Shown here piece after piece: positions 29,746-55,355 of a stretch of 64,000 bases of DNA. Made by a program: the position numbers and the translations under genes. Under the pieces are notes generated by a model. It ran no database searches and was not told where the DNA came from. It worked only from the letters and a program-made list of their open reading frames with translations. Source of the DNA: Methanosarcina acetivorans C2A (GTDB taxonomy: Archaea; Halobacteriota; Methanosarcinia; Methanosarcinales; Methanosarcinaceae); assembly GCF_000007345.1 (NCBI RefSeq), contig NC_003552.1:620001-684000 (forward strand). Reading direction: 5' to 3'. Each line of letters begins with the position of its first letter. Positions within the stretch are counted from its first letter, which is position 1.

Positions 29746-29880
29746 AACTTATATATAGTCGATTAAATGTCAATTATGGAGTTCAAATATACTTTCCATA
29801 CTCATCGCCTGAACTCCATGCTCCTGGGGCAGGATTATGCCGGTTTTGGAAGTACTGGCTTATCTGGCCCTGCTTCTCGG
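29746..29880 (+). promoter_or_regulatory. Leader element A: promoter plus GGAGTTCA/TGAACTCC stem
   Basis: A TATA-like box (CTTATATATAG, about 29748-29758) lies about 20 nt upstream of GGAGTTCA (29778-29785), which pairs with TGAACTCC (29810-29817) across a 24-nt loop. After it comes atgctcctggggcaggatta, shared with leader B. The spacing suggests that the stem sits at the very 5' end of the mRNA of the next gene (start 29933). Confidence 0.6.
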
Positions 29881-29932
29881 GAAATTAGGGAACTTGTTAA
29901 TTATGTGAAAGGATAAAAGCGGATGAGTAAAA

Positions 29933-30793
29933 GTGAGAAAAAAGAATTTACTACTCCTGGCTATATTTACCGTTCTTTTTGTTGTAGGCATATTTGCTCA
30001 TGCTATTTATATGGATGCAGAGGACTGGAGAGAGCCGGGTCGAAGATATAGTTGTGTATATAGTGTCAGGGTGGGCGGCCTTTCCGGAAGGGAAGTTGTC
30101 GGAACTACGGTGATAATGGTTCCTATTCCTGCAACAAAAGAAGGCAAGTTTTTTACTCCACCTGCCCAGAAGGATCCCTATTTTAGCCAGAGACTGATAC
30201 ATGAAATCCTTGACTGGCCTGAACAACACCGTAAAGGACCCTATTTCAAAAATGCGACTGAAGTTTTTGACAACAAAAAGATATCCGGGAACTGGACAAC
30301 ATTCATTGCAGAAACTGATAAAGGTTATATGTATGGGTTCAGGACAAATGAGACAAGGCTTGAAGATATCTCTTTTGGTAGAGAATTCGTTGCAGACTAC
30401 TTCGATATTTTCGATCCCATAAATAATGGAAGCCCTGTATTGTATCCCGTTGAAAACGTTTCTGAAATCTCTGTAGTTCCTTATGGATACGCTAAGTATG
30501 CCTCAAATCCGACATATGACACATATGTCTACTTAAGCGATAATCTGGAAGGAGGAGAAACAGTATCTTTCAATATCGAATTGGAGGCAAATAATGATCC
30601 GACGGAATGGCCTGAAGAGTACTGTGGTTATTACACTAATCTACTATTAACAAAAGTTAATGACACAGGCTATGTAAAAGTCCGGGCTATTCTCGGACAG
30701 GTCGTGCCGCATAGGAGTAACTCTGCTTCTTTATGGAGTAGTCAGTATGTTTTAGATTTTTATGGTGAGGAGACCTCTGACACTGAAAGTTAA
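29933..30793 (+). CDS. Unrecognised exported/membrane-anchored protein
   Basis: I do not recognise this 286-residue protein. It starts at GTG 29933 with an N-terminal hydrophobic helix (KKNLLLLAIFTVLFVVGIFAHAIYM) that is either a signal peptide or an anchor. The rest is extracellular in character: Asp/Asn-rich, several N-glycosylation sequons (NATE, NWTT, NETR, NVSE, NDTG), and alternating beta-type segments (YSVRVGGLSGREVVGTTVIMVPIP; EISVVPYGYAKYASNPTYDTYVYLSDNLEGGETVSFNIEL). Beta-sandwich surface protein is the likely structure. It is preceded by leader element A, and no operon partner is evident. A GCGAC-TATTG-GTCGC hairpin at 30805-30819 follows the stop. Confidence 0.7.
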   Translation: MRKKNLLLLAIFTVLFVVGIFAHAIYMDAEDWREPGRRYSCVYSVRVGGLSGREVVGTTVIMVPIPATKEGKFFTPPAQKDPYFSQRLIHEILDWPEQHRKGPYFKNATEVFDNKKISGNWTTFIAETDKGYMYGFRTNETRLEDISFGREFVADYFDIFDPINNGSPVLYPVENVSEISVVPYGYAKYASNPTYDTYVYLSDNLEGGETVSFNIELEANNDPTEWPEEYCGYYTNLLLTKVNDTGYVKVRAILGQVVPHRSNSASLWSSQYVLDFYGEETSDTES

Positions 30794-31119: not shown

Positions 31120-31270
31120 AAAACTTATATAGTGTCTATTAAATGTCAAGTATGGAGTTCTTATTGACTTTCCCGACTCGCTTGAACTCCATGCTCTTGG
31201 GGCAGGATTATACCAGTTTTGGAAGTACTGGTTTCTCTGGTTCTGCCTCTCGAGTAAAGAAAAGGGCTGA
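31120..31270 (+). promoter_or_regulatory. Leader element B: promoter plus GGAGTTC/GAACTCC stem
   Basis: AACTTATATAG (about 31122-31132) is followed by GGAGTTC (31154-31160) and GAACTCC (31184-31190). The promoter part is nearly the same as in leader A (tttgatgatctggctagaaa). The stretch after the stem (ggggcaggatta, ggaagtactgg) is also shared with A. The next start codon (31520) is 330 nt further on, so the leader would be unusually long here. Confidence 0.55.
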
Positions 31271-31519: not shown

Positions 31520-32707
31520 ATGGGTAAAAAATCAGTTCTTATTTTTTTGATGTTAGTCCTGCTTTCAGGACTTGCATCTGCAGATACTTACAATGTGTCC
31601 GGCCAGAATGAAATATTAGGGGAAAAGACTTTAGAGGAAAATAATGGCTGGTCAGAGATACCTGTGTATGATGTACCGTACTATACCTGGCACGATAGTC
31701 CGGAGACAACAATCTTCCTGCTCTCAAAATTAAGCGAAGAATCTCTTACAAACTGTACGAACCCTGAAAGTCCTGTATATGACCCCAACGTGTTACAAGC
31801 ATATGGAAGTGTTCCGGCGATTAAAAATGCTTCCCAGCTAACTGAGTTCAGTTCAACCCTGCAGGCTGTAAGGGACAGTTCTATTCGTGAGGCAAAGCCT
31901 TATCTTTATCCTGACGGTCCGATAGTTTACTACGGGGGCGGTCCTATGCCAGGGTATTTTTTGATCAAACTCTATGACTATGGGGGTAACAAAACCGCTT
32001 ATCTCGAAACCGAGTTAAAAGATATCTACAACGTTGTGGAAAAGAATGCTAATAAAGCCGGACTTGATGAAGTCCCGGTCATATTTTGTCTCTGGGATAA
32101 GACAGCAATATTTTGTTTTCCTGAAAATAAACCTGGCTTCGGCAAAGATGTTGTCCAGCTAACAGATGTTTGCTTCCCGGCGTGTTTTTATTATATAGTT
32201 AATTCCTCCTCATTGCAAATTATACAAAACAGTTCGCTCCCCGAAATAAAACCATACCTCTACCCCGAAGGCCCGATAATTGCCTACGGTTCCGACACCA
32301 TGGATCAAATTTTCCCTATAGAACTCTATTATGAAGGAAACGAAACAATCTATTCCCAAAGCGAACTTACTGAAATATATAATATTGTGGAAAAACATGC
32401 AAAAAGAGCCGGTCTTGATGGCGTTTCCGTTGAGTTCTACAACGAGAAGGGTAAAGTGCGTTTTGATAATTACTATAATAAATCATATTTCCGGCCCGGT
32501 AACCTAACTTCATGGAGTAGCGGCGGGATAGAAAATTCCACATTAAACAGCTCGGCCCGATTAAACGATCCGGAAAATACTACCTTTTCGGTAGGAGATA
32601 AAAATACTACTTTTTCGGTAGGGGATAATGTCTTTCCTATAGGGATATTCATCATGCCGCACCGATTGGGTTATGCTCAACAATCCGGGAAATTTTTGGG
32701 ATTGTAA
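31520..32707 (+). CDS. Secreted protein with two internal repeat domains
   Basis: A 395-residue exported protein of unknown function. The signal peptide is KKSVLIFLMLVLLSGLASA, with cleavage probably before DTYN. Two similar modules of about 70 residues are seen. The first is at roughly 118-190 (REAKPYLYPDGPIVYYGGGPMPGYFLIKLY ... LKDIYNVVEKNANKAGLDEVPVIF). The second is at about 240-315 (PEIKPYLYPEGPIIAYGSDTMDQIFPIELY ... LTEIYNIVEKHAKRAGLDGVSVEF). Between them is a cysteine-containing linker (VCFPACFYY). The tail has a duplicated 'NTTFSVGDK/N' and no membrane anchor. ATG 31520 is preceded by AGGGAG at 31501-31506, somewhat far from the start. No family is recognised. Confidence 0.75.
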   Translation: MGKKSVLIFLMLVLLSGLASADTYNVSGQNEILGEKTLEENNGWSEIPVYDVPYYTWHDSPETTIFLLSKLSEESLTNCTNPESPVYDPNVLQAYGSVPAIKNASQLTEFSSTLQAVRDSSIREAKPYLYPDGPIVYYGGGPMPGYFLIKLYDYGGNKTAYLETELKDIYNVVEKNANKAGLDEVPVIFCLWDKTAIFCFPENKPGFGKDVVQLTDVCFPACFYYIVNSSSLQIIQNSSLPEIKPYLYPEGPIIAYGSDTMDQIFPIELYYEGNETIYSQSELTEIYNIVEKHAKRAGLDGVSVEFYNEKGKVRFDNYYNKSYFRPGNLTSWSSGGIENSTLNSSARLNDPENTTFSVGDKNTTFSVGDNVFPIGIFIMPHRLGYAQQSGKFLGL

Positions 32708-35138: not shown

Positions 35139-35225
35139 AAGATGCTATTTTGGATAGGCTATCTTTTTCACTTTCTTTTTTGAGCCTGTTCACTAAAACC
35201 AAATTCAAGATGTGAGGGATTTGAT

Positions 35226-37511: not shown

Positions 37512-37598
37512 AAGATGCTATTTTGGATAGGCTATCTTTTTCACTTTCTTTTTTGAGCCTGTTTGCTAAAACCAAATTCAAGATGTGAGGGATTTGAC

Positions 37599-39947
37599 TT
37601 GAAAATGAAGACATTGATAGTTATCTGTCTGCTGGCGATAACACTTATTTCCGGTTCCGGCTGCATTGACAGCAGCAGCGAACCGGTTAACAAAACCGGC
37701 ATGGAAGAAATAACAGATAATCAAGCAGGTACTCAGAGCGATTCATTTAATGATATCATAGAAACTTCTACTCTAAAGAATTTCTCCGAAAAGAGCAATT
37801 TATTTAATGATTTTGTAGAGCTTGTTCCTGCAAAGAATTTCTCCGAGAGGAGCAATACTCTTGAACTTGAAAAGGAAAGTTCCTTTTCCGGATATTATAA
37901 TAAAGAAAACCTGCAGTTTGAGGCTGATGTTCCAGCTTATTCCCTGCCTATAGAGGCTTCCGAAATTGCGAATTATGACGATTTCATTCAGAAAATTCCC
38001 CTGACAAGCGAAAGCAGGGATTTGCTGTACAAAAATGGATTTGTTGTAATTGAAAGTGGAGATTACGAAAACTCACCTGGAGTAGGGGACACGCTGGTAA
38101 TTTCTACTTATAAAGACCTGAAAGTGGCTGATGTTCCTATTTTCATCACCTCGGATTCTCTTCTTCACCTTTATCACATCCAGTTTGATGAGACACTAAA
38201 AAGGGCGGAATCTGAGGAATTTTTCGACGAACTCTGGAAACTTGATAAAGCTCTCCTTGATGTCTCCATAAAGGATTATGACAGCGCTTCAGGGCTAGAA
38301 AAGGAAGCTGCAAGAAGAAATGTTGCATACTTTGCAGTGGCTTTGAAGCTTCTTGAACCGGAATCTTACCAGGTAGGGCAGTCATGGGAAGAATCGGGAG
38401 AAATTCTACTCTTTGATTCTCAGGAAGCAAAACAATACAGTGTCGAAGTCCCCTCTTTTGTAGAAACCGATGTAGAGGATGAATTGAACTTAATAGACTC
38501 TCAAAAAGGAGGAACATCTCCAATTTTCAAATACGGAGAAGATTACTCGCAGTACACCCCAAGAGGACATTACACTCGCTCTGAAAAACTACAAAACTAT
38601 TTTAAGGCCATGATGTGGCACGGCAGAATGAGTATGCTACTCCAACAGGACCTGGTTTCTGCAGAAGACCCGGAAAAGGAAGCCCAAATTCAGACTATTC
38701 AGGCCTTTTTAATTTCCGACCATTTTGACAGGGATAAAGAGCTCCGGGACAGGTGGGACAGGATTTACGAGGTGACGGCTTTTTATGTCGGTTATTCCGA
38801 CGACCTCGGGCCCTATGAGTATGCAAAAGCTCTGGATACCGTCTTTGGGGGTAATAGACATGGAGTGAGTTTCGACAACGAAAGCCTGGCGGAACTGAAA
38901 ACCGAGCTGGAAAGATATGAAAGTCCGAAAATCTACGGCGGAACCGGTGGAATAATTCAGGCAGGCTCCGAAACTGAAAGCAAAACTCTTGAAGCTACAA
39001 AAGGCTTCAGGTTCATGGGTCAGCGCTATATCCCGGATTCCTATATCTTCCAGAATCTCGGTTTCCCTGCCCTGAATGTCATAGATCTTCTCGGTTCTGA
39101 AAGAGCCAAGAAACACCTTAAAAATATGGGTGTTTCCGAAAATGCAGAATATGAACTCAGCCATCAATCTCTGGAAAACGAATTCGGAGCTTTTGATGAA
39201 GAAGCCTGGAATAAAAACCTTTACTGGGCTCAACTATATGCCTTAAAGCCTCTCCTCATAAGCTATCCTGATGGTTACCCCACTTTCATGCAGACCGAAG
39301 CCTGGGAAGATAAACAACTTAATGCTGCTCTCGCCTCCTGGACCGAGCTCAGGCATGATACTATTCTCTATGCGAAGCAGGCTTACTCCATGGGCTATCC
39401 TCAAATTCAGGAAGAAAAACCTATAGAGGGATATGTGGAGCCAGTTCCCGAATTTTATGCCCGGATGCTTGCCCTTACAAAAATGGCACATTCCGGATTA
39501 AATGATATGGAAGTGCTTGATGAGCAGTCGGATAAAGACTTTACAACTCTTGAACACACTCTTGAAAGGATGTTGAATATCTCGATTAAAGAGCTTGAAA
39601 ACAAAGAGCTAACAGAGGAAGAGTACGAATTCATCAGGAATTTTGACCAGAATATAGCTCCCATGCTTGAGAATGTGGATATAAAGTCCCAGACATCTGT
39701 TCTGGTTGCGGATGTTTATACAGGTCCGGGAGGGAATGTCTTGGAAGAAGGAACCGGAAAACTGGACCTGATGGTTGTAGCTTACAGACAGTCCGACGGT
39801 AGGATCGTGCTTGGAGCAGGCCCTGTAATGAGTTACTATGAGTTCTGGCAACCCCTGGGAGAAAGATTAACGGATGAAGAATGGAGAGATATGCTGGCAA
39901 ATGCCCCTCCTGAAAGGCCGGAATGGGTTGAGTCTTTTAAGGCGTAA
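37599..39947 (+). CDS. DUF3160 lipoprotein, copy 3
   Basis: A 782-residue paralogue. The start is placed at TTG 37599 by analogy with copies 1 and 2 (GAGGGATTTGAC then TTG); an in-frame TTG at 37563 and ATG 37605 are alternatives. Spacer contains the doubled block NFSEKSNLFNDFVELVPAKNFSERSNTLEL. The core matches copy 1 closely (SYQVGQSWEESGEILLFDSQEAKQYSVEVPSF, IFQNLGFPALNVIDLLGSERAKKHLKNMG). The C-terminus (RDMLANAPPERPEWVESFKA) instead resembles copy 5. This copy is followed by a small membrane protein gene, the same arrangement as copy 5, so gene and follower were duplicated together. Confidence 0.88.
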   Translation: MKMKTLIVICLLAITLISGSGCIDSSSEPVNKTGMEEITDNQAGTQSDSFNDIIETSTLKNFSEKSNLFNDFVELVPAKNFSERSNTLELEKESSFSGYYNKENLQFEADVPAYSLPIEASEIANYDDFIQKIPLTSESRDLLYKNGFVVIESGDYENSPGVGDTLVISTYKDLKVADVPIFITSDSLLHLYHIQFDETLKRAESEEFFDELWKLDKALLDVSIKDYDSASGLEKEAARRNVAYFAVALKLLEPESYQVGQSWEESGEILLFDSQEAKQYSVEVPSFVETDVEDELNLIDSQKGGTSPIFKYGEDYSQYTPRGHYTRSEKLQNYFKAMMWHGRMSMLLQQDLVSAEDPEKEAQIQTIQAFLISDHFDRDKELRDRWDRIYEVTAFYVGYSDDLGPYEYAKALDTVFGGNRHGVSFDNESLAELKTELERYESPKIYGGTGGIIQAGSETESKTLEATKGFRFMGQRYIPDSYIFQNLGFPALNVIDLLGSERAKKHLKNMGVSENAEYELSHQSLENEFGAFDEEAWNKNLYWAQLYALKPLLISYPDGYPTFMQTEAWEDKQLNAALASWTELRHDTILYAKQAYSMGYPQIQEEKPIEGYVEPVPEFYARMLALTKMAHSGLNDMEVLDEQSDKDFTTLEHTLERMLNISIKELENKELTEEEYEFIRNFDQNIAPMLENVDIKSQTSVLVADVYTGPGGNVLEEGTGKLDLMVVAYRQSDGRIVLGAGPVMSYYEFWQPLGERLTDEEWRDMLANAPPERPEWVESFKA

Positions 39948-40108
39948 AAGATGCTGTTCTTTATGGCTTCTTTTTCCTTTCATTTTTCTTTCATGGATGT
40001 GCTTGCGTAGCCCGGAAAAAAACAGTAACATTCAAGAGCTCCATAACTCTAAAATTCTAAATAATATACAAAATATTTATAGACACTGATGGTCAGGGAG
40101 GAATAATT

Positions 40109-40654
40109 CTGGACGGAAGTAAATGGTTTATGCTGGTGATCCTTGGTTTTCTTTCGGCAATTTTTCTTTTATCCCTCTATGAATCCGGAAATTTGTCCCT
40201 GGGTATGAATGACGTTGATAATTGTGATGAAATAAACAGGTTAGATATTGCAGAAGCTTTGCGTAAAATATACAGTAATGATAGCGATTTTCAAAACCTG
40301 ACAAAAGGTAACTACACAACTCCGGGGGCAATCTTCAATGAAACCGGAGAATCCGTAGTATGTATCCAGATAAACGGCTGGTATATTCATGAAGTAACCT
40401 TTGAGCTGCAGAACGGTACAATAAAAACCATCGGACCGTCCGAATCCCTGGAAGATCTTTACAGGGAAGCCGATTCCCTGAACGGGTCCGTAGTATCCGT
40501 TGATTCGCGAATCACAGGTGGAGAATTCTACATGATAACTATTGACACACCGAATAAAACAGTGACATCTATTGAAAAAGTGAGCGGGTACGACGAGTTG
40601 CCTGAATGGGCTAGAGGTCCTATAATCGTTTCAGAATATGAACCTGCTGATTAA
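40109..40654 (+). CDS. Small exported/membrane protein after DUF3160 copy 3 (probable CTG start)
   Basis: An unrecognised protein of 181 residues if begun at CTG 40109, or 174 from ATG 40130. GGGAGG (40096-40101) lies 7 nt before the CTG and would be too far from the ATG. The CTG start gives (M)DGSKWFMLVILGFLSAIFLLSLYESG, a normal signal or anchor, whereas the ATG start begins inside the hydrophobic helix. The paralogue at 46552 keeps the CTG but has lost this ATG. The exterior part has several sequons (NDSD, NLTK, NETG) and a beta-rich pattern (ESVVCIQINGWYIHEVTFELQNGTIKTIG ... GGEFYMITIDTPNKTVTSIEKV) that recalls PepSY-like small domains. A TATA-like AATATTTATAG (about 40072-40082) lies 30 nt upstream. 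Confidence 0.7.
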   Translation: MDGSKWFMLVILGFLSAIFLLSLYESGNLSLGMNDVDNCDEINRLDIAEALRKIYSNDSDFQNLTKGNYTTPGAIFNETGESVVCIQINGWYIHEVTFELQNGTIKTIGPSESLEDLYREADSLNGSVVSVDSRITGGEFYMITIDTPNKTVTSIEKVSGYDELPEWARGPIIVSEYEPAD

Positions 40655-40798
40655 GAAGAGGCTATTTCCAAACTTCTGGAAACAAGTGAGTATTCAAGGG
40701 AAGAGTAACTCGACCCTGTAAATCCATTTGGCAATAAAACGAACAAAAGTGAAGAATCTCTCTCCTGATATGTGTAATATTTAAGATAACTAATATTA

Positions 40799-41040
40799 AG
40801 AGGCTGTCTTAAAATTCAAATCATTTCTACATTTGGGTAGTACGCATTGTTGATCTTAAGTTCACTCCGTAAATTAATTAGATCTGACTTATTCGCTCGA
40901 TGCATAATATCAAATGCATTAGACATCATGGTTAAAATTTAAACTTTAGACATTTAACGGTTCAATTCTACCGTTTTTCAATCCAAATACATGAGTCCTA
41001 TCCCAATTGTATAATCAAATTGAATTTTAAGACACGCTCT
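40799..41040. mobile_element. MITE-like element 1 (about 240 bp)
   Basis: Terminal inverted repeats of about 21 bp bound a short non-coding, AT-rich core. The left end reads AGAGGCTGTCTTAAAATTCA... (40799-40819). The right end (41020-41040) reads, on the other strand, AGAGCGTGTCTTAAAATTCA.... They differ only at a swapped GC/CG. There is no open frame inside. The form is that of a miniature element mobilised by a transposase elsewhere. Target duplications are not clear. Confidence 0.75.
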
Positions 41041-41156
41041 AAGTATGATTTCAGGAAAAATGCCGTCTATAAAAATTCTCAAAATTTTAATCGATCTGTC
41101 AGCTCGGGGATATACCATTGGGCTTTCAATTAGTTTTTGGGCTTCGTAGAAGATTT

Positions 41157-41290
41157 AGAGCCTATCCGAAAAGTCGATAATGGCATGTTGCAAAGATTAC
41201 GAGAAGGATATACTATCTGGGTTCCGTTCCGGTTGCTTATTGCCCAATGTAAAAGTTATAGCAAACTGCAGCACTTTTCGGATAGGTTCT
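41157..41290. mobile_element. MITE-like element 2 (134 bp)
   Basis: Left end AGAGCCTATCCGAAAAGT (41157-41174) and right end ACTTTTCGGATAGGTTCT (41273-41290) form 18-bp terminal inverted repeats with one mismatch. The core is non-coding. TTA-like bases flank both ends and could be a short target duplication. It lies 116 bp from MITE-like element 1 but has different ends, so it is a separate family. Confidence 0.75.
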
Positions 41291-41376
41291 TAATGTCTTA
41301 CAGGTAGCTAATGTTTACAGGTACCCAATGTTTACAGGTACCCAATGTTTACAGGTACCTGATGTCTCACAGGACC
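41291..41376. repeat. 17-bp tandem repeat, five copies
   Basis: The unit caatgtttacaggtacc occurs as two exact copies at 41326-41342 and 41343-41359. One-mismatch and looser copies lie before (41291-41308, 41309-41325) and after (41360-41376). The array abuts the right end of MITE-like element 2 directly. Confidence 0.9.
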
Positions 41377-41626
41377 TTTGGTATTTCGCTTCAAATACAC
41401 TTTCAGCAGGTATGGTCATATAAGCTTTCTGTCCAGAGTCTCAAACAATCAAAGGTAGGGGAATAAGCACATACCTGAAAAGAATGTGAAAACAGTCATT
41501 TCGAAAGTTTTACCGGGAAAACATATAAAGATATAAATAAAATTTCGTGTAAAGTTAGTTTTCCGATTTTCTATAAACGTGCCAGCCACAGATATACTTA
41601 TTATTGCAGTTTTGAAGGGATCTCAA

Positions 41627-43963
41627 TTGAAAATAAGGACATCGATAGTTATCTTTTTACTGGTGGTTTCACTGATACCTGGATCAGGCTGTATTGACAG
41701 CAGTAGCGAACCTGTCAAAGAAACGAAACTGGATGAAGGAACAGACAATCAGGACGTTTCGTCCATTGATACAGCAGAAACCTCTCCTCCAGAGAATTTC
41801 TCTGACAGGAGCAATGCCCTTGAACTTGAAAAACAAAGAGCCTTTTCCGGATATTACAGTAAAGAAAACCTGCAGTTTGAGGCCGATGTTCCTGCTTATT
41901 CTTTGCCCCTGAAGGCTTCAGAGCTTGAAAATTTTTATCATTTCACCCAACAGATCTCCCTTACAAACGAAAACAGGAACTTATTGTACAAAAATGGGTT
42001 TGTTGTAATTGAAAATGAGGTTACTAAAGATCGATTTAAAGCGGAGCAGGTAAATGCAACTTACAGGAGCCTTAAAGTGGCTGGGGTCCCGATCTTCATC
42101 ACAACGGATTCTCTTCTTCACCTTTATCATATCCAGTTTGATGAGACTTTAAAAAGAGTCGAAGAAGAGGAGTTTTATGACAAGCTCTGGGAACTTGATA
42201 AAGCTTTTCTTGAAGCTTCCATAGAAAATTATAATGAGGCAAAAGAAAACAATTCTTCATCTGAAGAAGTAACAGAGGCTGCAAGAAGAAATGTTGCATA
42301 TTTTGCAGTTGCCCTTAGTTTGCTTGAAGAGAAACCGGATCCAAACAGGACCGAAGTCAAATCTACAGAGGAGCAGGGTTCCGAAGAATACAGCTTTGAA
42401 GTCCCTTCATTTGTAAAAGAAGAGGTTGAAACCGAGCTTGCTTTGATAGAAGCTCACGAAGGATTTGCTCGCTCCCCGATTTTCCTGTATGAAGAAGATT
42501 ACTCTCAGTACGTCCCAAGAGGACATTACACGTCCTCTGAAAAGCTGATGAACTATTTCAGAGCCATGATGTGGCACGGTAGAATAAGTATGCTGCTCCG
42601 GTCGGATCTCATCACTGCAGAAGAGCAAACAATAGAAGGCTCAGCTACAGAAGATTCAACAGCAGAAGAATCAGCTTTGGAAGTATCAGAAAAGAAAGCA
42701 AAAATTCAGACTATTCAGGCCCTTTTAATTTCTGACCATTTTGACAGGGACGAAAGCCTTCGGGCCAGATGGGATCGGATCTACGATGTAACAGCTTTCT
42801 ATGTCGGTTTTTCCGATGACCTCGGGCCCTATGAATACGCAAGAGCTCTTGATGCTGTTTTTGGTGGCAATAGAGAAAGGGTAAGCTTCGACAACGAAAA
42901 CCTCACGGCACTGAAAACCGAGCTGGAAAAATATGAAAATCCGAAAATCTACGGCGGAACGGGGAAAATAATTCCTGCAGGTCCAGATACTGAAAATGAA
43001 ACTCTTGACGCTACAAAAGGTTTCAGGTTCATGGGTCAACGATATGTTCCGGACTCCTATATTCTCCAAGTTCTGCACCCTCCTGCTCTGAATATAATGT
43101 ATCTCCTCGGTTCTGAAAGAGCCAGAGAACATCTTATTAACCTGAATATTTCCGAAAGTGAAGGTTATAAAGTGCGTTACAGATCCCTTGAAAATGAATT
43201 TGGAGCTCTTGATGAAGAAGCCTGGAACAAAAACCTTTACTGGGCTCAACTATATGCTTTAAAGCCCCTCCTTGTAAGTTATCCGGCGGGTTATCCTACC
43301 TTTATGCAGACCGAAGCCTGGGAAGATAAGCAGCTTAACACCGCCCTCGCCTCCTGGACCGAACTAAGGCATGATACTATTCTCTATGCAAAGCAGGCTT
43401 ACTTTACAGGTGCTCCCTACGTGCCGCCGGAGGAAAAACCGGTTCAAGGATATGTGGAGCCAGCTCCTGAATTCTATGCCAGGATGCTTGCTCTTACCAG
43501 AATGGCACATGCCGGGCTGGCTGATATGAAAGTGCTTGATGAGCAGTCGGATAAAGACTTTACAACTCTTGAAACCACTCTTGAAAAATTGCTGGAAATC
43601 TCAATTAAAGAACTTGAAAATAAAGAGCTAACGGATGAAGAGTATGAATTCATTAGAAATTTCGACCAGAATATAGCTCCAATGCTTGAGGACATCGATG
43701 GGGATGCCCAGAGCTCTGTCATGGTTGCAGATGTCTACACAAATCTGGGGAGCGTTTTGGAAGAAGGGACCGGAAAACTGGATCTGATGGTTGTAGCTTA
43801 TAAACAGCCTGACGGCAGGATCGTGCTTGGAGCAGGTCCTGTAATGAGTTATTATGAGTTCTGGCAGCCTTCAGGAGAAAGGTTGACTGATGAAGAATGG
43901 AGAGAAATGTTAGAAAATGACCCTCCTGAAAGGCCGGAGTGGATAAGTTCCTTTAGGGGATAA
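41627..43963 (+). CDS. DUF3160 lipoprotein, copy 4
   Basis: A 778-residue paralogue and the most divergent of the five. Start TTG 41627 behind GAAGGGATC; a GTG at 41579 in the same frame is unlikely. The signal KIRTSIVIFLLVVSLIPGSGC has the lipobox. The spacer is short (about 25-60). Two acidic insertions distinguish it: NEAKENNSSSEEVTE in the first helical part, and a Glu/Ser/Thr-rich stretch (EEQTIEGSATEDSTAEESALEVSEKK) in front of KIQTIQALLISDHFDRDESLR. All family blocks are kept. It sits after the MITE-like elements and begins the second half of the array. Confidence 0.88.
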   Translation: MKIRTSIVIFLLVVSLIPGSGCIDSSSEPVKETKLDEGTDNQDVSSIDTAETSPPENFSDRSNALELEKQRAFSGYYSKENLQFEADVPAYSLPLKASELENFYHFTQQISLTNENRNLLYKNGFVVIENEVTKDRFKAEQVNATYRSLKVAGVPIFITTDSLLHLYHIQFDETLKRVEEEEFYDKLWELDKAFLEASIENYNEAKENNSSSEEVTEAARRNVAYFAVALSLLEEKPDPNRTEVKSTEEQGSEEYSFEVPSFVKEEVETELALIEAHEGFARSPIFLYEEDYSQYVPRGHYTSSEKLMNYFRAMMWHGRISMLLRSDLITAEEQTIEGSATEDSTAEESALEVSEKKAKIQTIQALLISDHFDRDESLRARWDRIYDVTAFYVGFSDDLGPYEYARALDAVFGGNRERVSFDNENLTALKTELEKYENPKIYGGTGKIIPAGPDTENETLDATKGFRFMGQRYVPDSYILQVLHPPALNIMYLLGSERAREHLINLNISESEGYKVRYRSLENEFGALDEEAWNKNLYWAQLYALKPLLVSYPAGYPTFMQTEAWEDKQLNTALASWTELRHDTILYAKQAYFTGAPYVPPEEKPVQGYVEPAPEFYARMLALTRMAHAGLADMKVLDEQSDKDFTTLETTLEKLLEISIKELENKELTDEEYEFIRNFDQNIAPMLEDIDGDAQSSVMVADVYTNLGSVLEEGTGKLDLMVVAYKQPDGRIVLGAGPVMSYYEFWQPSGERLTDEEWREMLENDPPERPEWISSFRG

Positions 43964-44050
43964 AATATGCCATTCTGAATAGGTTATCTTTTTCACTTTC
44001 TTTTTTGAGCCTGTTTGCTAAAACCAAATTCAAGATGTGAGGAATTTGAC

Positions 44051-46390
44051 TTGAAAATAAAGACATTGATAGTTATCTGTCTGCTGGCGATAACACTTAT
44101 TCCCGGGTCCGGCTGTATTGATAGCAATAGTGAACCAGTCAAAGAAACAGGACTGGAAAAAGTAACCGATAAACAGGACAGTTCGCCCGATGTCACAGTA
44201 GAAACTGCCCTTGAGGGAAACTTCTCCGAGAAGAGTAATACCCTTGAACTTGAAACAGGAAGCTCCTTTTCCAGATATTACAGTAAAGAAAACCTGCAGT
44301 TCGAGGCCGGCGTTCCCGCTTATTCTCTGCCTCTAAAGGCTTCCGAAATTACAAATTATGACGATTTTATCCAAAAAATTCCTCTGACGAACAAGAACAG
44401 GGACTTACTGTACAAAAACGGGTTTGTTGTAATTGAAAGCAGAGCTTCTGGAAACCTGTTTGAGGCCGAGCCGGTAAGAGTAAACGAGATTTACAGCGCC
44501 CTGAAATCGGCTGATATTCCTATCTTCATTACGTCGGACTCTCTTCTTCATCTTTACCACATCCAGTTTGATGAGACCTTAAAACAGGTAGAAAAGGACG
44601 AATTTTATGATGATTTGTGGAAACTTGACAAAGCTCTTCTTGAAACCTCCATAGAGGATTATAACAGGTCGATAGAGGATAAAGCCTCTGAAGAAGTAAC
44701 GGAAGCTGCAAGAAGAAATGTTGCGTACTTCGCCGTGGCTTTGAGCCTGCTCCAGCCGAAACCTGAGCAGATAGAGCAATCACAGAGATATTTAGGGAAA
44801 GCTACACTTTTTGATCCACAGAATGCGAAACAGTACAGTGTAGAAATCCCTTCATTTGTAAAAGCTGATGTAGAAGCCGAAATTGCCCTGATAGGAGCGC
44901 AAAAAGGAGGAATATCTCCTATTTTCAAGTATTATGAAGATTACTCTCAGTACATTCCAAGAGGGCACTATACAACATCTGAGAAATTAACTAATTATTT
45001 TAAGACCATGATGTGGCACGGTAGAATGAGCATGCTCCTTCGGCCGAACATGATCACTTCAGAAGAATCAATGGTAAAAGAATCAGTTACGGAAAAATCA
45101 GCTGCGGAAGAATCTGAAAAGGAGTCCAGAATTCAGACAATTCAGGCTCTTTTGATTTCTGACCATTTTGATAGGGACAAAAACCTCCGGGCTGAATGGG
45201 ACAGAATTTACGATGTGACGGCTTTTTATGTCGGTTTTTCCGACGATCTCGGGCCTTATGAATATGCAAAAGCTCTGGACACCGTCTTTGGGAATGATAG
45301 AGAAGAATCAAGCTTCGACAACGAAAACCTTACAGCACTGAAGACCGAGCTGGAAAGATATGAAAACCCGAAAATCTATGGAGGTACAGGGGAAATAATT
45401 CCGGCAGGCTCAGAAACTGAAAACAAAACTCTTGAGGCTACAAAGGGATTCAGGTTCATGGGTCAGCGCTATACTCCCGACTCGTATATCCTCCAGAAAC
45501 TCTATCCTCCAGCCCTGAACATCATGGACCTTCTCGGTTCCGAAAAAGCTAGAGAACACCTGAAAAATATGGGTTTTTCCGAAAACGAAGAATACAAAGA
45601 ACGTCATTTGTCTCTGGAAAATGAATTTGAAGCTTTTGAAGGAGAGGACTGGAATAAAAACCTCTACTGGGCACAGCTATACGCCTTAAAGCCCCTGCTT
45701 GTAAGTTATCCAGAGGGCTATCCTACTTTTATGCAGACAGAAGCCTGGGAAGATAAACAGCTGAACGCGGCTCTTGCTTCTTGGACCGAGCTCAGACATG
45801 ATACCATTCTCTATGCAAAGCAGGCTTACTTTGTAGGTGCGTTCTATGATCTGGAAGAAATACCTGTTCAGGGATATGTAGAGCCAGTGCCTGAATTCTA
45901 TGCCAGGATGCTTGCCCTTACAAAAATGGCGCATAGTGGGCTGGCTGAAATGGAAGTACTTGACGAACAGTCGGATAAAGACTTTACAACTCTTGAAAGC
46001 ACTCTTGAAAAACTGCTGGAAATCTCGATTAAAGAGCTTGAAAATAAAGAGCTGACAGATGAAGAATATGAGTTCATCAAAAGTTTCGAAAAAAATATAG
46101 CTCCAATGCTTGAGAACATAGATGAAGACACTCAGAGCTCTGTTGTGGTTGCGGATGTTCATACAGATCAGGAAGGGAGAGTTTTGGAAGAAGGAACCGG
46201 AAAACTGGACCTGATAGTAGTAGCCTATAAACAGCCCGACGGCAGGATCGTTCTTGGAGCAGGCCCTGTAATGAGTTATTATGAGTTCTGGCAGCCCTCA
46301 GGGGAAAGATTGACTGATGAAGAGTGGAGAGAAATGCTTGAAAATAAACCTCCTGAAAGGCCGGAATGGGTTGAGTCTTTTAAGTCGTAA
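44051..46390 (+). CDS. DUF3160 lipoprotein, copy 5
   Basis: A 779-residue paralogue starting at TTG 44051 with GAGG upstream (the same spacer as before copies 2 and 3; an in-frame TTG at 44015 is an alternative). Lipobox LIPGSGC. It shares with copy 4 the acidic insertion before the ISDHFDRDK block (here EESMVKESVTEKSAAEESEKE). It shares with copies 1 and 3 the segment NMGFSENEEYKERHLSLENEFEAFEGEDWNKNLYW. Conserved motifs FITSDSLLHLYHIQFDETLK, MMWHGRMSMLL and WTELRHDTILYAKQ are intact. Its end (PPERPEWVESFKS) and 3' flank match copy 3. It is followed by the second copy of the small membrane protein gene. Confidence 0.88.
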   Translation: MKIKTLIVICLLAITLIPGSGCIDSNSEPVKETGLEKVTDKQDSSPDVTVETALEGNFSEKSNTLELETGSSFSRYYSKENLQFEAGVPAYSLPLKASEITNYDDFIQKIPLTNKNRDLLYKNGFVVIESRASGNLFEAEPVRVNEIYSALKSADIPIFITSDSLLHLYHIQFDETLKQVEKDEFYDDLWKLDKALLETSIEDYNRSIEDKASEEVTEAARRNVAYFAVALSLLQPKPEQIEQSQRYLGKATLFDPQNAKQYSVEIPSFVKADVEAEIALIGAQKGGISPIFKYYEDYSQYIPRGHYTTSEKLTNYFKTMMWHGRMSMLLRPNMITSEESMVKESVTEKSAAEESEKESRIQTIQALLISDHFDRDKNLRAEWDRIYDVTAFYVGFSDDLGPYEYAKALDTVFGNDREESSFDNENLTALKTELERYENPKIYGGTGEIIPAGSETENKTLEATKGFRFMGQRYTPDSYILQKLYPPALNIMDLLGSEKAREHLKNMGFSENEEYKERHLSLENEFEAFEGEDWNKNLYWAQLYALKPLLVSYPEGYPTFMQTEAWEDKQLNAALASWTELRHDTILYAKQAYFVGAFYDLEEIPVQGYVEPVPEFYARMLALTKMAHSGLAEMEVLDEQSDKDFTTLESTLEKLLEISIKELENKELTDEEYEFIKSFEKNIAPMLENIDEDTQSSVVVADVHTDQEGRVLEEGTGKLDLIVVAYKQPDGRIVLGAGPVMSYYEFWQPSGERLTDEEWREMLENKPPERPEWVESFKS

Positions 46391-48529: not shown

Positions 48530-48690
48530 AAAAACTTTATACTTTATATCATATGTCTGAGAAAATAATTTCAGGAGTTCAAACGCACCTTCCAGAGTAG
48601 ATTTGAACTCCATTGTGCCCGGCGGCATGGTTAGTGTTAGCTTTTCGGTTATTTAAGGTTTGCCTGATTCTGCCTCTGGAGTAAAGTAAA
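48530..48690 (+). promoter_or_regulatory. Leader element C: promoter and double hairpin
   Basis: ACTTTATACTTTATATC (about 48534-48550) is the promoter. GGAGTTCAAA (48574-48583) pairs over 10 bp with TTTGAACTCC (48602-48611). Five bases on, a second hairpin TGCC-CGGC-GGCA occupies 48616-48627. The segment ends shortly before the start of the C39-like protease gene at 48702. It is the best-formed copy together with leader D. Confidence 0.65.
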
Positions 48691-48701
48691 GAGGTTAAAG
48701 A

Positions 48702-49973
48702 ATGATTGCAAACAGAAAATTTGGGATCGGCACATTACTTGCTGCAATATTTATCGTGAGCATGGCGTTTGTGCCGGCTGTGAGTGCACAGGAAGAATCA
48801 TTAAATGGGACTGACACATTAAATGTAGTCAGCGTAAAACAAGCTGAGGAAGTTGCGTCTTTCTCTATAAAAGAGATTTCTGGATCTTTATCTAATTTTT
48901 CAGAATGGGGGGATGCAACAGTGAAACTTTCTACTGTCTACTACGATCTTGATGGTAAAAAGTCAGCCTATTCATTTAATATTATCGAAAATAAGCAACA
49001 AATAGGTCATATTTTTATTTCAGCGACAAAGGATAATTGCCCAGTTCTGGAGTTTTCAAAAGGTAAGATACCTAATGAAATTCCAGAATTTACAACTCGT
49101 TCTGAATCACTGGTACAAGAACATGCTAACAAACTAATATCTGAAAATAATTCTAAAGAAGAGCTGACTATTGGAAAGATGAAACCTCTTTACTTAGGCC
49201 CAACATTTTACTATGCAGAGTATACCCTAACCGATACTAAAGGTAATATCAAAGAAAAAGTAATAGTGGATTTGCCATTTTCTACTATAGTAAACTTTAA
49301 TGAATCAAATGTGAATGTTCCTGTAGGTGAAGACTACTTTTTTAACAACACATATTTACAACAGCAACAAGAAATGAGAATACAAAATGCAAATGCACAA
49401 TGGACTGCCTTAGAAAAAGAAATGGTTGATTCCTCAAGTTATTCTGCCTCTTCCAGTGTAGAATATTCGATCAGTGGTGTGCCATATTATCCCTGGCGCG
49501 ATGGCTGTTCTCCAACTGCGGCTGGAATGGTATTAGGATATTGGGATACTCATGGGTATTCTAATTTCCCATCAAGAGATTATCTAATAGATGAATTAGC
49601 GGAAGCAATGGGTACAGATTGGCCAGGAAATGGAGCAACTTGGCCATGGAATATTGATGATGGCATAGAGACGGTTTGTGATACGTACAATTATCCCAGG
49701 TTTCAGGCAAGTAATGATTATGTCTCATGGAGCGAGGTAAAAACCGAAGTGAATGCAAATAGACCTTTCGTACTTAGCATGTTAAACGGCGGGACAGCTA
49801 TTGGTTGCAGTCAGGACTATGGTGAGCATAGTGTTACTTGTATGGGATATTATGAGGGGAGTACTGATTATGTACTTTTACATGATACATGGAGTACAAC
49901 CACTACACGCTACCTGGCTTTTGGAAGCTGGACCGGAGCTATGGCAACATGGGTCAAGTATGTGACTGGGTGA
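48702..49973 (+). CDS. Secreted C39-like papain-fold cysteine protease
   Basis: A 423-residue exported protein. Signal peptide ANRKFGIGTLLAAIFIVSMAFVPAVSA, cleaved before QEES. A pro-region of about 200 residues (VKQAEEVASFSIKEISG ... EKVIVDLPFSTIVNF) probably keeps it inactive or directs folding. The catalytic domain starts near residue 250: SISGVPYYPWRDGCSPTAAGMVLGYWDTHGY with Cys269 (after G, before SPTAAGM), then CSQDYGEHSVTCMGYYEG with His376, and YVLLHDTW with Asp395. This is the Cys-His-Asp order of peptidase_C39_2-type proteases. No transporter or bacteriocin gene is nearby, so it likely acts on cell-surface or extracellular protein. It is preceded by leader element C. Confidence 0.85.
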   Translation: MIANRKFGIGTLLAAIFIVSMAFVPAVSAQEESLNGTDTLNVVSVKQAEEVASFSIKEISGSLSNFSEWGDATVKLSTVYYDLDGKKSAYSFNIIENKQQIGHIFISATKDNCPVLEFSKGKIPNEIPEFTTRSESLVQEHANKLISENNSKEELTIGKMKPLYLGPTFYYAEYTLTDTKGNIKEKVIVDLPFSTIVNFNESNVNVPVGEDYFFNNTYLQQQQEMRIQNANAQWTALEKEMVDSSSYSASSSVEYSISGVPYYPWRDGCSPTAAGMVLGYWDTHGYSNFPSRDYLIDELAEAMGTDWPGNGATWPWNIDDGIETVCDTYNYPRFQASNDYVSWSEVKTEVNANRPFVLSMLNGGTAIGCSQDYGEHSVTCMGYYEGSTDYVLLHDTWSTTTTRYLAFGSWTGAMATWVKYVTG

Positions 49974-50085
49974 AGTGTGTGAGTTCATGAACTCACTAGA
50001 TGCCGTTTGGGGGCTGGACTGGAAGATATGACAATAAGGGTGAGACCTTAATCGCCCATTATATTTTTTTGAATGGGGAATGTAA

Positions 50086-50751
50086 ATGTTTTATAAGAAA
50101 GTGAATAAAAAGATAATATTTTTAATATTTTTGATAGTTGTTCTTATCGGAGTATGGCTTGTGCTTGACCTCATTAAAATAGGTCCAGGACTGCCCCCTT
50201 CAGAATCGATGCCTAAATGGTACATCCCTGGAGCTTGGCAAGGAAATGTAGAGAGCTGTACTTCATCTTTTCCGAAAATTTCACCTTATTGCAAAGTTGG
50301 AGTATTTTCCGGAGGAAAATTTATAAGTGTCTGGTACTTTGATGATGAATCTAAATTTCTAAACGGAGAAGAGATGCTTTATCTCCATCTGGAAGAAAAC
50401 GGTAATGTGTTCCATCAGGAACTGAATATTAGTACAGAACTTCATGAAGAAATTGAAAGACGTGAAGTTGAAAATTTCCCTAATATCACATCTTTTAATT
50501 CAACAAGATATGAAAGCCCTAATACGTCGGGATACTTTATAGTATACGAGAGACCTTTCCTTAAAGGGAGAGAAGACTATTTCATAGCGTATTACGGAAT
50601 CATGGGAACAACAAATCTCTCTGAAGAAACTCCAGCGCTGAAAAAATTGATTGCAGAATCCTTTTATATGTCTAATGAAGAAGGAAAAGTTGACGGTTTA
50701 AAGATGGGGAATAAAAAAGGAACGGGTAATTCGTTACTTCCATGGTTTTAA
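50086..50751 (+). CDS. Unrecognised membrane-anchored protein
   Basis: A 221-residue protein with a single N-terminal helix (KKIIFLIFLIVVLIGVWLVLDLI) and an outside domain. The start ATG 50086 follows GAATGGGGAATGTAA, a weak ribosome site. The domain contains two close cysteines (ESCTSSFPKISPYCKVGVFSGG) that may form a disulphide, beta-type stretches (KFISVWYFDDES, YFIVYERPFLKGREDYFIAYYGIMG) and N-sequons (NISTE, NITSF, NTSG). No family is recognised. It lies 112 bp after the C39-like protease on the same strand; whether they share a transcript is unclear. Confidence 0.65.
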   Translation: MFYKKVNKKIIFLIFLIVVLIGVWLVLDLIKIGPGLPPSESMPKWYIPGAWQGNVESCTSSFPKISPYCKVGVFSGGKFISVWYFDDESKFLNGEEMLYLHLEENGNVFHQELNISTELHEEIERREVENFPNITSFNSTRYESPNTSGYFIVYERPFLKGREDYFIAYYGIMGTTNLSEETPALKKLIAESFYMSNEEGKVDGLKMGNKKGTGNSLLPWF

Positions 50752-50784
50752 CAAAAAGGTTAGCCCTCATTTGCATTTTTTTCG

Positions 50785-51000
50785 ATGAGCAGATCCCAAA
50801 ATTCAATACGTGACTCCATTGGTCATCAGCTAAGGAATTTTCTTGCCCGAAAGCTATCGATTTTGCACCATAAGTCTGCCTCAATTTTGCCCAATCTTCC
50901 TCAAATTGACACCTGCTCTATCTCCTTATACGTTAAAATTTTGAACATCTGTTGTGGAAATGGATGCAATATATCACGATTCCTTACTTAACCGAAGACG
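50785..51000. repeat. Non-coding segment repeated at about 53785-53990
   Basis: cattggtcatcagctaagga and gctatcgattttgcacca here match cattggtcatcggttaagga and gatatcgattttgcacca at 53790-53845. The end gattccttacttaaccgaag is matched at 53955-53975. Both copies are broken in all frames. They look like remnants of a gene or spacer once shared by two modules. Confidence 0.65.
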
Positions 51001-51363
51001 CATGGATATGAATTTAATTATTCAACGGTATCTTCCGGTATCGATACGCCTTATTCCACTTTTCTCCATAGCAGCTTTAGCATTTTTGCAGGATACCCTA
51101 ACGAAAAGGTCACTCTGGTATATACGAATGGGGAAGACGAAATCCGTATTGTAGAAAGCATTTCTGAAAAGAGTTTACCTGAAACTCAGGATTTTGAAAG
51201 TGAAGGAGAGCCTGTTCCGGTCAATGACAAGTCCGGTACGATTTCTTCGGTATTTGGAGGAAATATGAAAGCTCTAACCTGGCAAGATGGGGAATTCGAA
51301 ATTACTATTATTTCTTCTCTTGATAAGGGGGAGATGCTTAATATTTCCGAATCCTTCTCCTGA
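51001..51363 (+). pseudogene. 5'-truncated copy of the DUF4367 domain
   Basis: An open frame without a start codon reads HGYEFNYSTVSSGIDTPYSTFLHSSFS ... GEMLNISESFS and stops at TGA 51361. It is a close copy (few substitutions, no gaps) of the last 120 residues of the lipoprotein gene ending at 48335. An in-frame TAA lies just upstream of the junction. The duplicated block continues past the stop into the terminator, leader and signal peptide of the next gene. It is therefore a passenger of a segmental duplication, not a gene in its own right. Confidence 0.88.
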
Positions 51364-51398
51364 TATCCGAGAAGTTTTCAGAACGAATAAAATAAAAG

Positions 51399-51427
51399 GT
51401 GAAGTTACAGACTTCACATTCTTTTTT
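51399..51427 (+). terminator. Duplicated hairpin terminator
   Basis: GTGAAGT (51399-51405), TACAG, ACTTCAC (51411-51417), then ATTCTTTTTT. Same structure as at 48366, inside the duplicated block. Confidence 0.75.
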
Positions 51428-51549
51428 GTTGTAAAAAAAGTACTGGCAACATTTGGGAGTTACAATCATTCTGTCAAAATCATCATGTAATTTCTCATAT
51501 AAAGTGTTACAACTGATGAAAATAATCGTAAATTCAGCGTTTATTGTTA

Positions 51550-51700
51550 AATGATATGGTGAAAAACTTTATACTTTATATAATATGTCTGATAAAATAG
51601 TTTGTGGAGTTCAAACGCACATTCCAGAGTAGATTTGAACTCCATTGTGCCCGAAGGCATGGTTAGTGTTAGCTTTGCGGTTATTTAAGTTTTGTCTGAT
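51550..51700 (+). promoter_or_regulatory. Leader element D: promoter and double hairpin
   Basis: ACTTTATACTTTATATA (about 51566-51582), GGAGTTCAAA (51606-51615) paired with TTTGAACTCC (51634-51643), then TGCC-CGAA-GGCA (51648-51659). Compared with leader C, both stems are unchanged while the second tetraloop differs (CGGC versus CGAA). This fits selection on pairing, though the copies are young. Confidence 0.65.
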
Positions 51701-51738
51701 TCTGCCTCTGGAGTAACAAAATGGTGAGGTAGAAACAA

Positions 51739-52695
51739 ATGATAAAAAATAAATTTGGAATAAAAATGCTAATTTTGGCAATTCTGCTGGTAAGCATGGC
51801 GTTTGTGCCGGCTGTGAGTGCCTCTTTTGAGAAAACCAATGAACAACAGATGCCAGAAGAAGTAAAAGAATGGATTGAAAAAAATACGGTGGATGAAGAA
51901 ACAAAAATTTGGAGAGCGAAACAAACCGAACAATGGATGCAAAATCATACTGTAAATGTAACATCAACTACAACTTACAAATACTATAATGGGCAACTCG
52001 AAATAAAAGAAGTTTATACAAGTAAAGATCCTGAAAATAAAGCTAAAGTCAATGATTTTACAAAAATAAGTAAAATACCAATCAGCGCAAAAGATAAAAT
52101 TACGATTTTAAATGGTGAGTCCTTCACTCTTGAAGAAGGAAACGAGAAAGTTATCGTAACTGAAAAAACAGTAGTAATAACAAGTCAAACTGATCCATAC
52201 CCCTGGTGGGATTATGGCTATCAATATCCTCAGTGGACATGGTCAGAAGACAATGACCAGTATGCCAGAGAAGACCCGATAAATCTTGCATGGGAATATA
52301 CAAATCTCAATACTGTAAAGTCTGTGATTTTAGACCAAGGATGGAAGGACAACATTTTCGAATATACTTATTATGTATCGGACCCGGTAAATGGTTGGAT
52401 TGAAGATGATGGCGTTGCCACTGACGAAGAACGTTATCTTGGCGGTTATCACACAAGATTGTTTGAATTGAATAACGGAGATGTCGTGGGTGGCGCGCAT
52501 CATGATGATCCATTCCCTCATGAAGCAGATGAATTTGAAACTGCTGAAGATGTGGTTGCTGAATTCTTTGACGGCAATGTAAATAACTGGTGGGTATTAT
52601 ATGATCACCGAGAGCTTGATAATGAAGTAGGAACGCCAAATTCAGAACCATGGAATGATGGAGAAGCCACTTGTATATATAAAGTAGGAAGTTAA
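51739..52695 (+). CDS. Unrecognised secreted protein sharing the signal peptide of the C39-like gene
   Basis: A 318-residue exported protein. Its signal IKNKFGIKMLILAILLVSMAFVPAVSA is nearly the same as that of the C39-like protease at 48702, including the DNA (gtaagcatggcgtttgtgcc region), while the mature parts are unrelated. A charged region with Lys/Glu helices (EVKEWIEKNTVDEETKIWRAKQTEQWMQNHTVNV) is followed by an aromatic-rich domain (PYPWWDYGYQYPQWTWSEDNDQY). A C-terminal part with HHDDPFPHEADEFETAEDVVAEFFDG could bind metal through its His/Asp cluster. No family is recognised. It is preceded by leader element D. Confidence 0.75.
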   Translation: MIKNKFGIKMLILAILLVSMAFVPAVSASFEKTNEQQMPEEVKEWIEKNTVDEETKIWRAKQTEQWMQNHTVNVTSTTTYKYYNGQLEIKEVYTSKDPENKAKVNDFTKISKIPISAKDKITILNGESFTLEEGNEKVIVTEKTVVITSQTDPYPWWDYGYQYPQWTWSEDNDQYAREDPINLAWEYTNLNTVKSVILDQGWKDNIFEYTYYVSDPVNGWIEDDGVATDEERYLGGYHTRLFELNNGDVVGGAHHDDPFPHEADEFETAEDVVAEFFDGNVNNWWVLYDHRELDNEVGTPNSEPWNDGEATCIYKVGS

Positions 52696-54435: not shown

Positions 54436-54502
54436 GAGGAAGCTTGTCCAGGTATTTTCTAACAAGTTTACACATCACTGAAATTATATTTTTGTATTAT
54501 AG

Positions 54503-54565
54503 GGGTTCAAACGAACCTTCCGGAGTAGATTCAAAATCCCGTTGTTCCCGGAGGCATGAGTTTAT
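54503..54565 (+). promoter_or_regulatory. Leader element E: decayed copy
   Basis: GGGGTTCAAACGAACCTTCC (54503-54522) and GGAGTAGATTC, followed by TTCCCGGAGGCATG (54546-54559), match leaders C and D across the loop and second hairpin. The right arm (TTCAAAATCCC) no longer pairs well. A TATA-like ATTATATTTTTG lies upstream (about 54484-54495). The next gene (54649) is itself frameshifted. Confidence 0.5.
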
Positions 54566-54648
54566 GCTATTATAACTAAGCGAATATTTTCGTACATTTA
54601 CAGAATAACACAGATTGTTATCTTACTATTTTAGAAAGGAGTGACAAG

Positions 54649-55279: not shown

Positions 55280-55355
55280 AGAAAACTTATAAAGAGCTAT
55301 CTAAATGTAGTTTATGGAGTTCAAACATAGAAACTCAAGTTGAATTATTGAGAGG
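55280..55355 (+). promoter_or_regulatory. Leader element F: promoter with left arm only
   Basis: AAACTTATAAAG (about 55283-55294) is a good TATA box. GGAGTTCAAAC at 55316-55326 is the left arm. The right arm is reduced to a partial TTGAA (about 55340-55344). The start codon of the next gene is only 40 nt further on. Confidence 0.5.

Follow-up and report, generated by a model that had tools for sequence, protein, structure and literature searches.

A candidate translational switch in the leader RNA of exported-protein genes in Methanosarcina acetivorans and related archaea

Background

Translational riboswitches combine a conserved folded domain in the 5' leader of an mRNA with helices that exclude one another, one helix hiding the Shine-Dalgarno (SD) sequence. 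The regulons of cyclic-di-GMP (GEMM) riboswitches have many copies per genome, which stand before genes for unrelated surface or secreted proteins. To our knowledge, archaea have few known cis-regulatory RNAs. The crcB/fluoride and TPP riboswitches are classes named for both bacteria and archaea (PMC2864571). The nearest report to the element described here concerns the S-layer gene slmA1 of Methanosarcina, which has a conserved UTR with predicted structures (PMC3361143).

The window analyzed here is a stretch of 64,000 nucleotides (positions 620001-684000) of the 5,751,492-base genome of Methanosarcina acetivorans C2A, and all coordinates below are positions in this window. An earlier note on the window had drawn attention to a repeated leader that begins with a short stem and precedes unrelated surface-protein genes. 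Its observation is confirmed in part and its interpretation is supported in part. At the gathering cut-off of Rfam 15 no family matches the leaders, and a search of 29.5-56 kb at E <=5 gave nothing relevant. The only family found in the whole window is PYLIS_2 (RF02509), the pyrrolysine insertion sequence of mtbB, with a strong match of 114 bits at 1688-1787. The open full-text literature, as searched, yielded no description of the element. The accessible part of a transcription start site study of Methanolobus psychrophilus (PMC5378194) does not mention it.

Results and discussion

Leaders in the window

Two covariance models were used: R1, built from nine copies, and the broader R2, built from 108 copies. 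Six sites had been proposed on the basis of the word GGAGTTC, and four of them (leaders A-D) are intact (Table 1). In these the right arm GAACTCC, already noted for four leaders, is found at 29811, 31184, 48605 and 51637 and pairs with GGAGTTC at 29778, 31154, 48574 and 51606 across a gap of 23-26 nt. The R2 scores of A-D are 53-110 bits, which do not amount to independent evidence since A-D are partly within the training sets. Site E scores only 28 bits with a broken P2 and was rejected as a full copy, and site F was rejected as a copy of the element since neither model matches it. Leaders C and D have long flanking sequence in common and look like recent duplicates. The expectation of a gene after each leader does not hold for leader B, where no open frame follows directly and the first downstream ORF of at least 100 aa begins at 31520.

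The window also has a run of five long ORFs, each of 761-794 aa, at 32832-46390 (starts 32832, 35226, 37563, 41579 and 44015). Several of them carry antisense ORFs of identical length, which suggests that the five are tandem duplicates.

Table 1. Leaders, their helices and the genes behind them, in window coordinates
Feature	Position	Strand	Description	Evidence
Leader A	29778..29886	+	P1 29778-29817; P2 basal arms near 29828-29831 and 29871-29874	R2, 53 bits
Gene A	29933..30793	+	286 aa; GTG start; hydrophobic N-terminus	
Leader B	31154..31259	+	P1 31154-31190; P2 basal arms near 31201-31204 and 31244-31247	R2, 58.7 bits
Leader C, TATA-like word TTATAT	48544..48549	+	30 nt 5' of P1	Fits genus-wide peak at -30 to -28
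Leader C, P1 hairpin	48574..48611	+	Arms 48574-48583 and 48602-48611; 10 bp	Fold and covariation
Leader C, P2 long hairpin	48624..48674	+	Basal arms GGCA 48624-48627 and TGCC 48671-48674	R2 and covariation
Leader C, P3	48673..48694	+	CCTCT 48673-48677 with AGAGG (SD) 48690-48694	
Gene C	48702..49973	+	C39-like peptidase family, 423 aa, exported	PF13529, E 1e-20; signal-like start
Leader D, P1 hairpin	51606..51643	+	Arms 51606-51615 and 51634-51643	Fold, R2
Leader D, P2	51656..51706	+	Basal arms GGCA 51656-51659 and TGCC 51703-51706	Fold, R2
Leader D, P3	51705..51729	+	CCTC 51705-51708 with GAGG (SD) 51726-51729	
Gene D	51739..52695	+	318 aa, exported	Signal-like start; no Pfam match
Leader E	54502..54608	+	Decayed; imperfect P1, P2 broken in most pairs	R2, 28.4 bits
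Site F	55316..55325	+	Promoter and first P1 arm alone	No R1 or R2 match

Conserved fold

The whole genome holds 10 occurrences of the pattern GGAGTTCN{12,34}GAACTCC and 0 of the reversed-pattern control; therefore, the spaced inverted repeat is not due to chance. The conserved stretch reaches beyond the stem to about 115 nt and ends near TGCCTC(C)NNGGAGTAA. The first helix, P1, is formed by GGAGTTC(AAA) paired with (TTT)GAACTCC. The second, P2, is a long hairpin that starts with AGGCA and ends with TGCCT and has inner helices near GATTA/TGATT and AGCTT/AAGCT; it was already seen in several copies by single-sequence folding.

Compensatory substitutions, by which the earlier note had proposed to judge the stem, are present in P1 and P2. 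Both sides change at least once in 19 of the 22 modelled pairs of the two helices (107 distinct sequences). The count of both-side-change cells is 178, versus 70 after shuffling and 25-60 with the arms slid; as the structure guided the alignment, the counts lean towards it, a bias limited by these two controls. In P1, pairs such as GAAATCCAGAC...CCTGGATTTC (L099) and GGGATCCGAAC...TTCGGATCCC (L096) keep the pairing by compensatory changes while the loop varies. The loop core TTCC that had been noted is common within the genus but does not persist through the family. Of 69 unpaired positions, only 9 reach 85% conservation or more, and the conserved unpaired bases are GCCC in the linker together with, in P2, TT and the TTTG...TTAA loop. 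A mutual-information search for pseudoknots gave no clear extra helix; it lengthened P1 by two pairs and gave a weak signal in the SD region.

A second hairpin, TGCC-NNNN-GGCA, had been described in leaders C and D. It turns out to be part of a larger structure, in which its GGCA doubles as the 5' arm of P2; the local hairpin and P2 therefore compete. The description was incomplete, as it missed the 50-nt P2 and the covariation of the P2 3' strand with the SD. Pairs of the form GCC-N3-6-GGC are found in 180 of 204 copies and in 18% when shuffled. Since its flanking pairs do not covary (z -2.5), the local hairpin is kept as a putative helix only. A test for a transcription attenuator of the intrinsic-terminator type found no U run after P2 or P3 in the copies listed, where GGAGTAAA-like or coding sequence follows instead. 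The element is a folded conserved domain in a 5' leader with compensatory changes, as is expected of a riboswitch.

Pairing with the Shine-Dalgarno sequence

In its 3' strand P2 carries GCCTC or GCCTCCT(A/G)G, which has a matching counterpart, GAGG or C(T/A)AGGAG, immediately upstream of the start codon. This pairing is called P3. Duplexes between a leader and its own SD have a mean energy of -8.2 kcal/mol, versus -6.2 kcal/mol with swapped partners (z -12.6), and none of 5000 permutations equalled the cognate pairing. The effect is seen within clades, with z of -5.7 in Methanosarcina and -9.9 in the other genera. The base after GCCTC covaries as A-T, T-A, G-C and C-G (Fisher p 0.002, 0.002, 0.0006 and 3e-8); since the sequences are related these p-values are inexact, and the within-clade tests are safer. 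Departures from the usual words are matched as well, with GCCTTTT pairing AAAAGG in L125 and L132 and GCCTCG pairing CGAGG in L063 and L079. At ordinary genes with an SD the upstream pairing is weaker than P3.

P2 and P3 have 4 nt in common in 69 of 91 leaders and are mutually exclusive because they use the same nucleotides. The predicted ground state varies by copy: P2 is ahead in most, by a median of 4.2 kcal/mol, and P3 is ahead in C and D. Folding C and D without constraints, together with part of their coding regions, gives P1, the local TGCC-NNNN-GGCA and P3. The local hairpin with P3 against P2 would make an attractive two-state picture, in which the local hairpin has no covariation of its own. 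On sequence evidence, the leaders thus hold an alternative helix that would hide the SD, which is what an expression platform provides.

Promoter and position in the mRNA

Counted from the first P1 nucleotide, a TATA-like word begins at -30 to -28 in most Methanosarcina copies. Such a word lies within -35 to -24 in 71% of the genus copies, versus 1-6% in windows further upstream. Therefore, transcription should begin at P1 in Methanosarcina. The proposal that the stem is at the 5' end of the mRNA is supported by this promoter geometry, that is, for a predicted start. A TATA box had been reported upstream of A, B and F, a list that was incomplete, as TTATAT begins at -30 in C and D too. P1 and the start codon lie a median of 131 nt apart, within a narrow range (5th-95th percentile 124-143 nt).

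The other genera have a weaker TATA signal and a different upstream consensus, and the RNA is kept. Since the RNA is kept where the upstream consensus differs, a role at the RNA level is argued. Five copies from other genera (L080, L083, L085, L086 and L090) have a near-palindrome of the type CACATT...AATGTG just upstream of P1. It may be a transcription-factor site that takes the place of the Methanosarcina promoter words.

Distribution

The search for further copies that had been suggested was productive. In the genus, 28 of 31 genomes have matches (E <=0.01), with up to 37 per genome and about 385 in total, a number that may include a few antisense hits on the P1 palindrome. Three genus genomes have no copy, namely G011 (99% complete), G017 (92%) and G019; therefore, the element is dispensable. 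The element is found in 65 of 112 genomes and 9 of 14 genera of the family, and in 103 of 186 genomes and 18 of 27 genera of the order, three other families among them. In the class search, all of the matches listed are inside the order. One copy, in genome G074, lies at 1377876-1377988 of that genome, on the minus strand.

The three outer families, which we take from the known taxonomy of the order to be probably ANME-2 methanotroph groups, were kept out of R2 and serve as a test set. In this set, P1 is 96% paired, the base of P2 is 97% paired and the next ORF is signal-like in 27 of 28 cases. In these families the P3 letters hardly vary (z -1.2), and P3 is there a putative helix with which the sequences are consistent.

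Among named records, the strict core pattern is found chiefly in Methanosarcina and Methanolobus. Three MAGs labelled Syntrophomonadaceae, Cloacimonadota and Clostridia (L251, L259 and L273) also hold this pattern, and are probably mis-binned archaeal contigs. A viral origin was rejected, as the strict pattern has no match in viral contigs.

Genes behind the leader

Among the 132 proteins of 100 aa or longer that are encoded downstream of a leader, 126 have a signal-peptide-like start, versus 24 of 219 in the background (Fisher p ~1e-61). The measure is a simple hydrophobicity rule rather than a trained predictor; the background is 400 kb in 20 spread regions of one genome, and the linked genes come from many genomes. 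An earlier background of ORFs near the elements (56 of 139 signal-like) was too rich in surface genes and was replaced. Most linked proteins have no further membrane segments. The fixed distance to a signal-peptide gene also rules out a dispersed repeat with no gene association.

Compared beyond residue 40, the linked proteins form 39 clusters. A Pfam scan of 75 of them could name few, and these are mostly proteases: 7 C39-like peptidases, 7 M12B reprolysin-like metallopeptidases and 2 matrixins, the remaining names being single DUFs and repeats. None of the named targets serves the biosynthesis or the transport of a single metabolite. The unrelated downstream families reported before are thus borne out, and nearly all of the products are exported, a signal which the earlier note had overlooked. 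The property common to the targets is export and not family. The protein behind one copy (L126:430-1257, + strand) has a halocin C8-like domain (TIGR04449) at 28.5 bits, above the NCBIfam cut-off, and it is possible that it is an archaeal antimicrobial peptide.

Proposed mechanism

On comparative grounds, P1 and P2 form and P2 has a 3' strand that matches the SD of its own mRNA. We infer that the two helices exchange in the cell, as well as the direction of the exchange and a signal that would drive it. The best explanation, which we hold to be reasonably probable, is a switch acting in cis on the translation of part of the secretome, which would work by P2/P3 exchange in a leader RNA of about 115 nt. 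With P2 formed the SD would be free and translation on, and with P3 formed the SD would be paired and translation off. One signal that shifts this exchange could then govern how far many unrelated secreted proteins are translated. The most likely binding sites for an effector are the GCCC linker and the TT and TTTG...TTAA loop of P2. Candidate signals are a small molecule, a protein or sRNA and, least likely, temperature. P1 at the extreme 5' end may additionally protect the mRNA. It is probable that otherwise unrelated exported proteins share one unrecognised RNA switch.

The short conserved unpaired words, GCCC and TTTG...TTAA, could be the site at which a protein or small RNA binds the leader and shifts P2/P3, and a regulator of this kind may report the state of export or of the surface, which would suit targets linked by export and not by pathway. 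This explanation depends on a putative regulator, and we regard it as a rather unlikely one. A strict riboswitch, in which P1 and upper P2 bind a metabolite or second messenger and the P2/P3 exchange serves as expression platform, seems slightly less likely again. It would account for a conserved, compact domain that adjoins a helix sequestering the SD, and the many copies before unrelated exported proteins recall the cyclic-di-GMP regulons; however, the highly conserved unpaired positions are few for an aptamer, and the named targets do not belong to the metabolism of one compound. That the leader could work like a riboswitch is well supported, although strict ligand-binding membership cannot be claimed. 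An undescribed, order-wide class of archaeal riboswitch-like RNA, which would coordinate how part of the secretome, with extracellular proteases among its exported proteins, is translated under one cellular signal (export capacity and a second messenger are possible ones), is put forward tentatively, at somewhat short of an even chance.

The position of P1 at the predicted transcription start, and its pairing kept while the loop varies, would also fit a stability element in which P1 shields the mRNA from attack at the 5' end and P2/P3 are passive. This would leave the covariation of the P2 3' strand with the SD unexplained, so we consider it improbable. Since the SD is predicted to be paired in C and D, heat could melt P3 and free it, as in an RNA thermometer; however, the modelled SD of C and D stays paired at 20, 37 and 45 C, and most other copies are predicted to favour the open state at 37 C. 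A thermometer seems very unlikely. The promoter words common within the genus and the recent duplication suggested by the shared flanks of C and D might instead reflect an operator palindrome in the DNA, or a cassette copied with its promoter and signal-peptide start, the RNA having no role. The compensatory changes in P1 and P2, the covariation of P3 with the SD across genera, and an upstream consensus that differs between Methanosarcina and the other genera make this the most doubtful explanation, with hardly any weight.

The translational switch by P2/P3 exchange remains the preferred explanation. One folded leader, in up to 37 copies per genome, stands almost exclusively before genes for exported proteins. 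If it switches, it would be a natural archaeal translation switch and a handle on how these archaea, including the genetically tractable Methanosarcina, set their outer protein coat, with relevance that probably extends to the anaerobic methane oxidisers. The covariance models and the swap of SD partners make the claim testable by ordinary reporter fusions.

Comparison with known systems

The slmA1 leader is similar in that a long conserved 5' UTR precedes an exported-protein gene, with a TATA upstream of the mapped 5' end (PMC3361143). However, its sequence has no P1, P2 or conserved words, which rules it out as a member. The crcB/fluoride and TPP riboswitches are likewise cis-regulatory leader RNAs in archaea, but they are other RNAs with other targets, and neither is matched here. 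With the cyclic-di-GMP (GEMM) regulons the element has in common its many genome copies before unrelated surface or secreted proteins; its sequence and structure are different, it has no Rfam match, and the matches listed all fall within one archaeal order. The element differs from the translational riboswitches in its targets, which are linked by export and not by a metabolic pathway, and in its few conserved unpaired bases. The element is like them in its 5' leader position, its folded domain, its mutually exclusive helices and the helix that would hide the SD.
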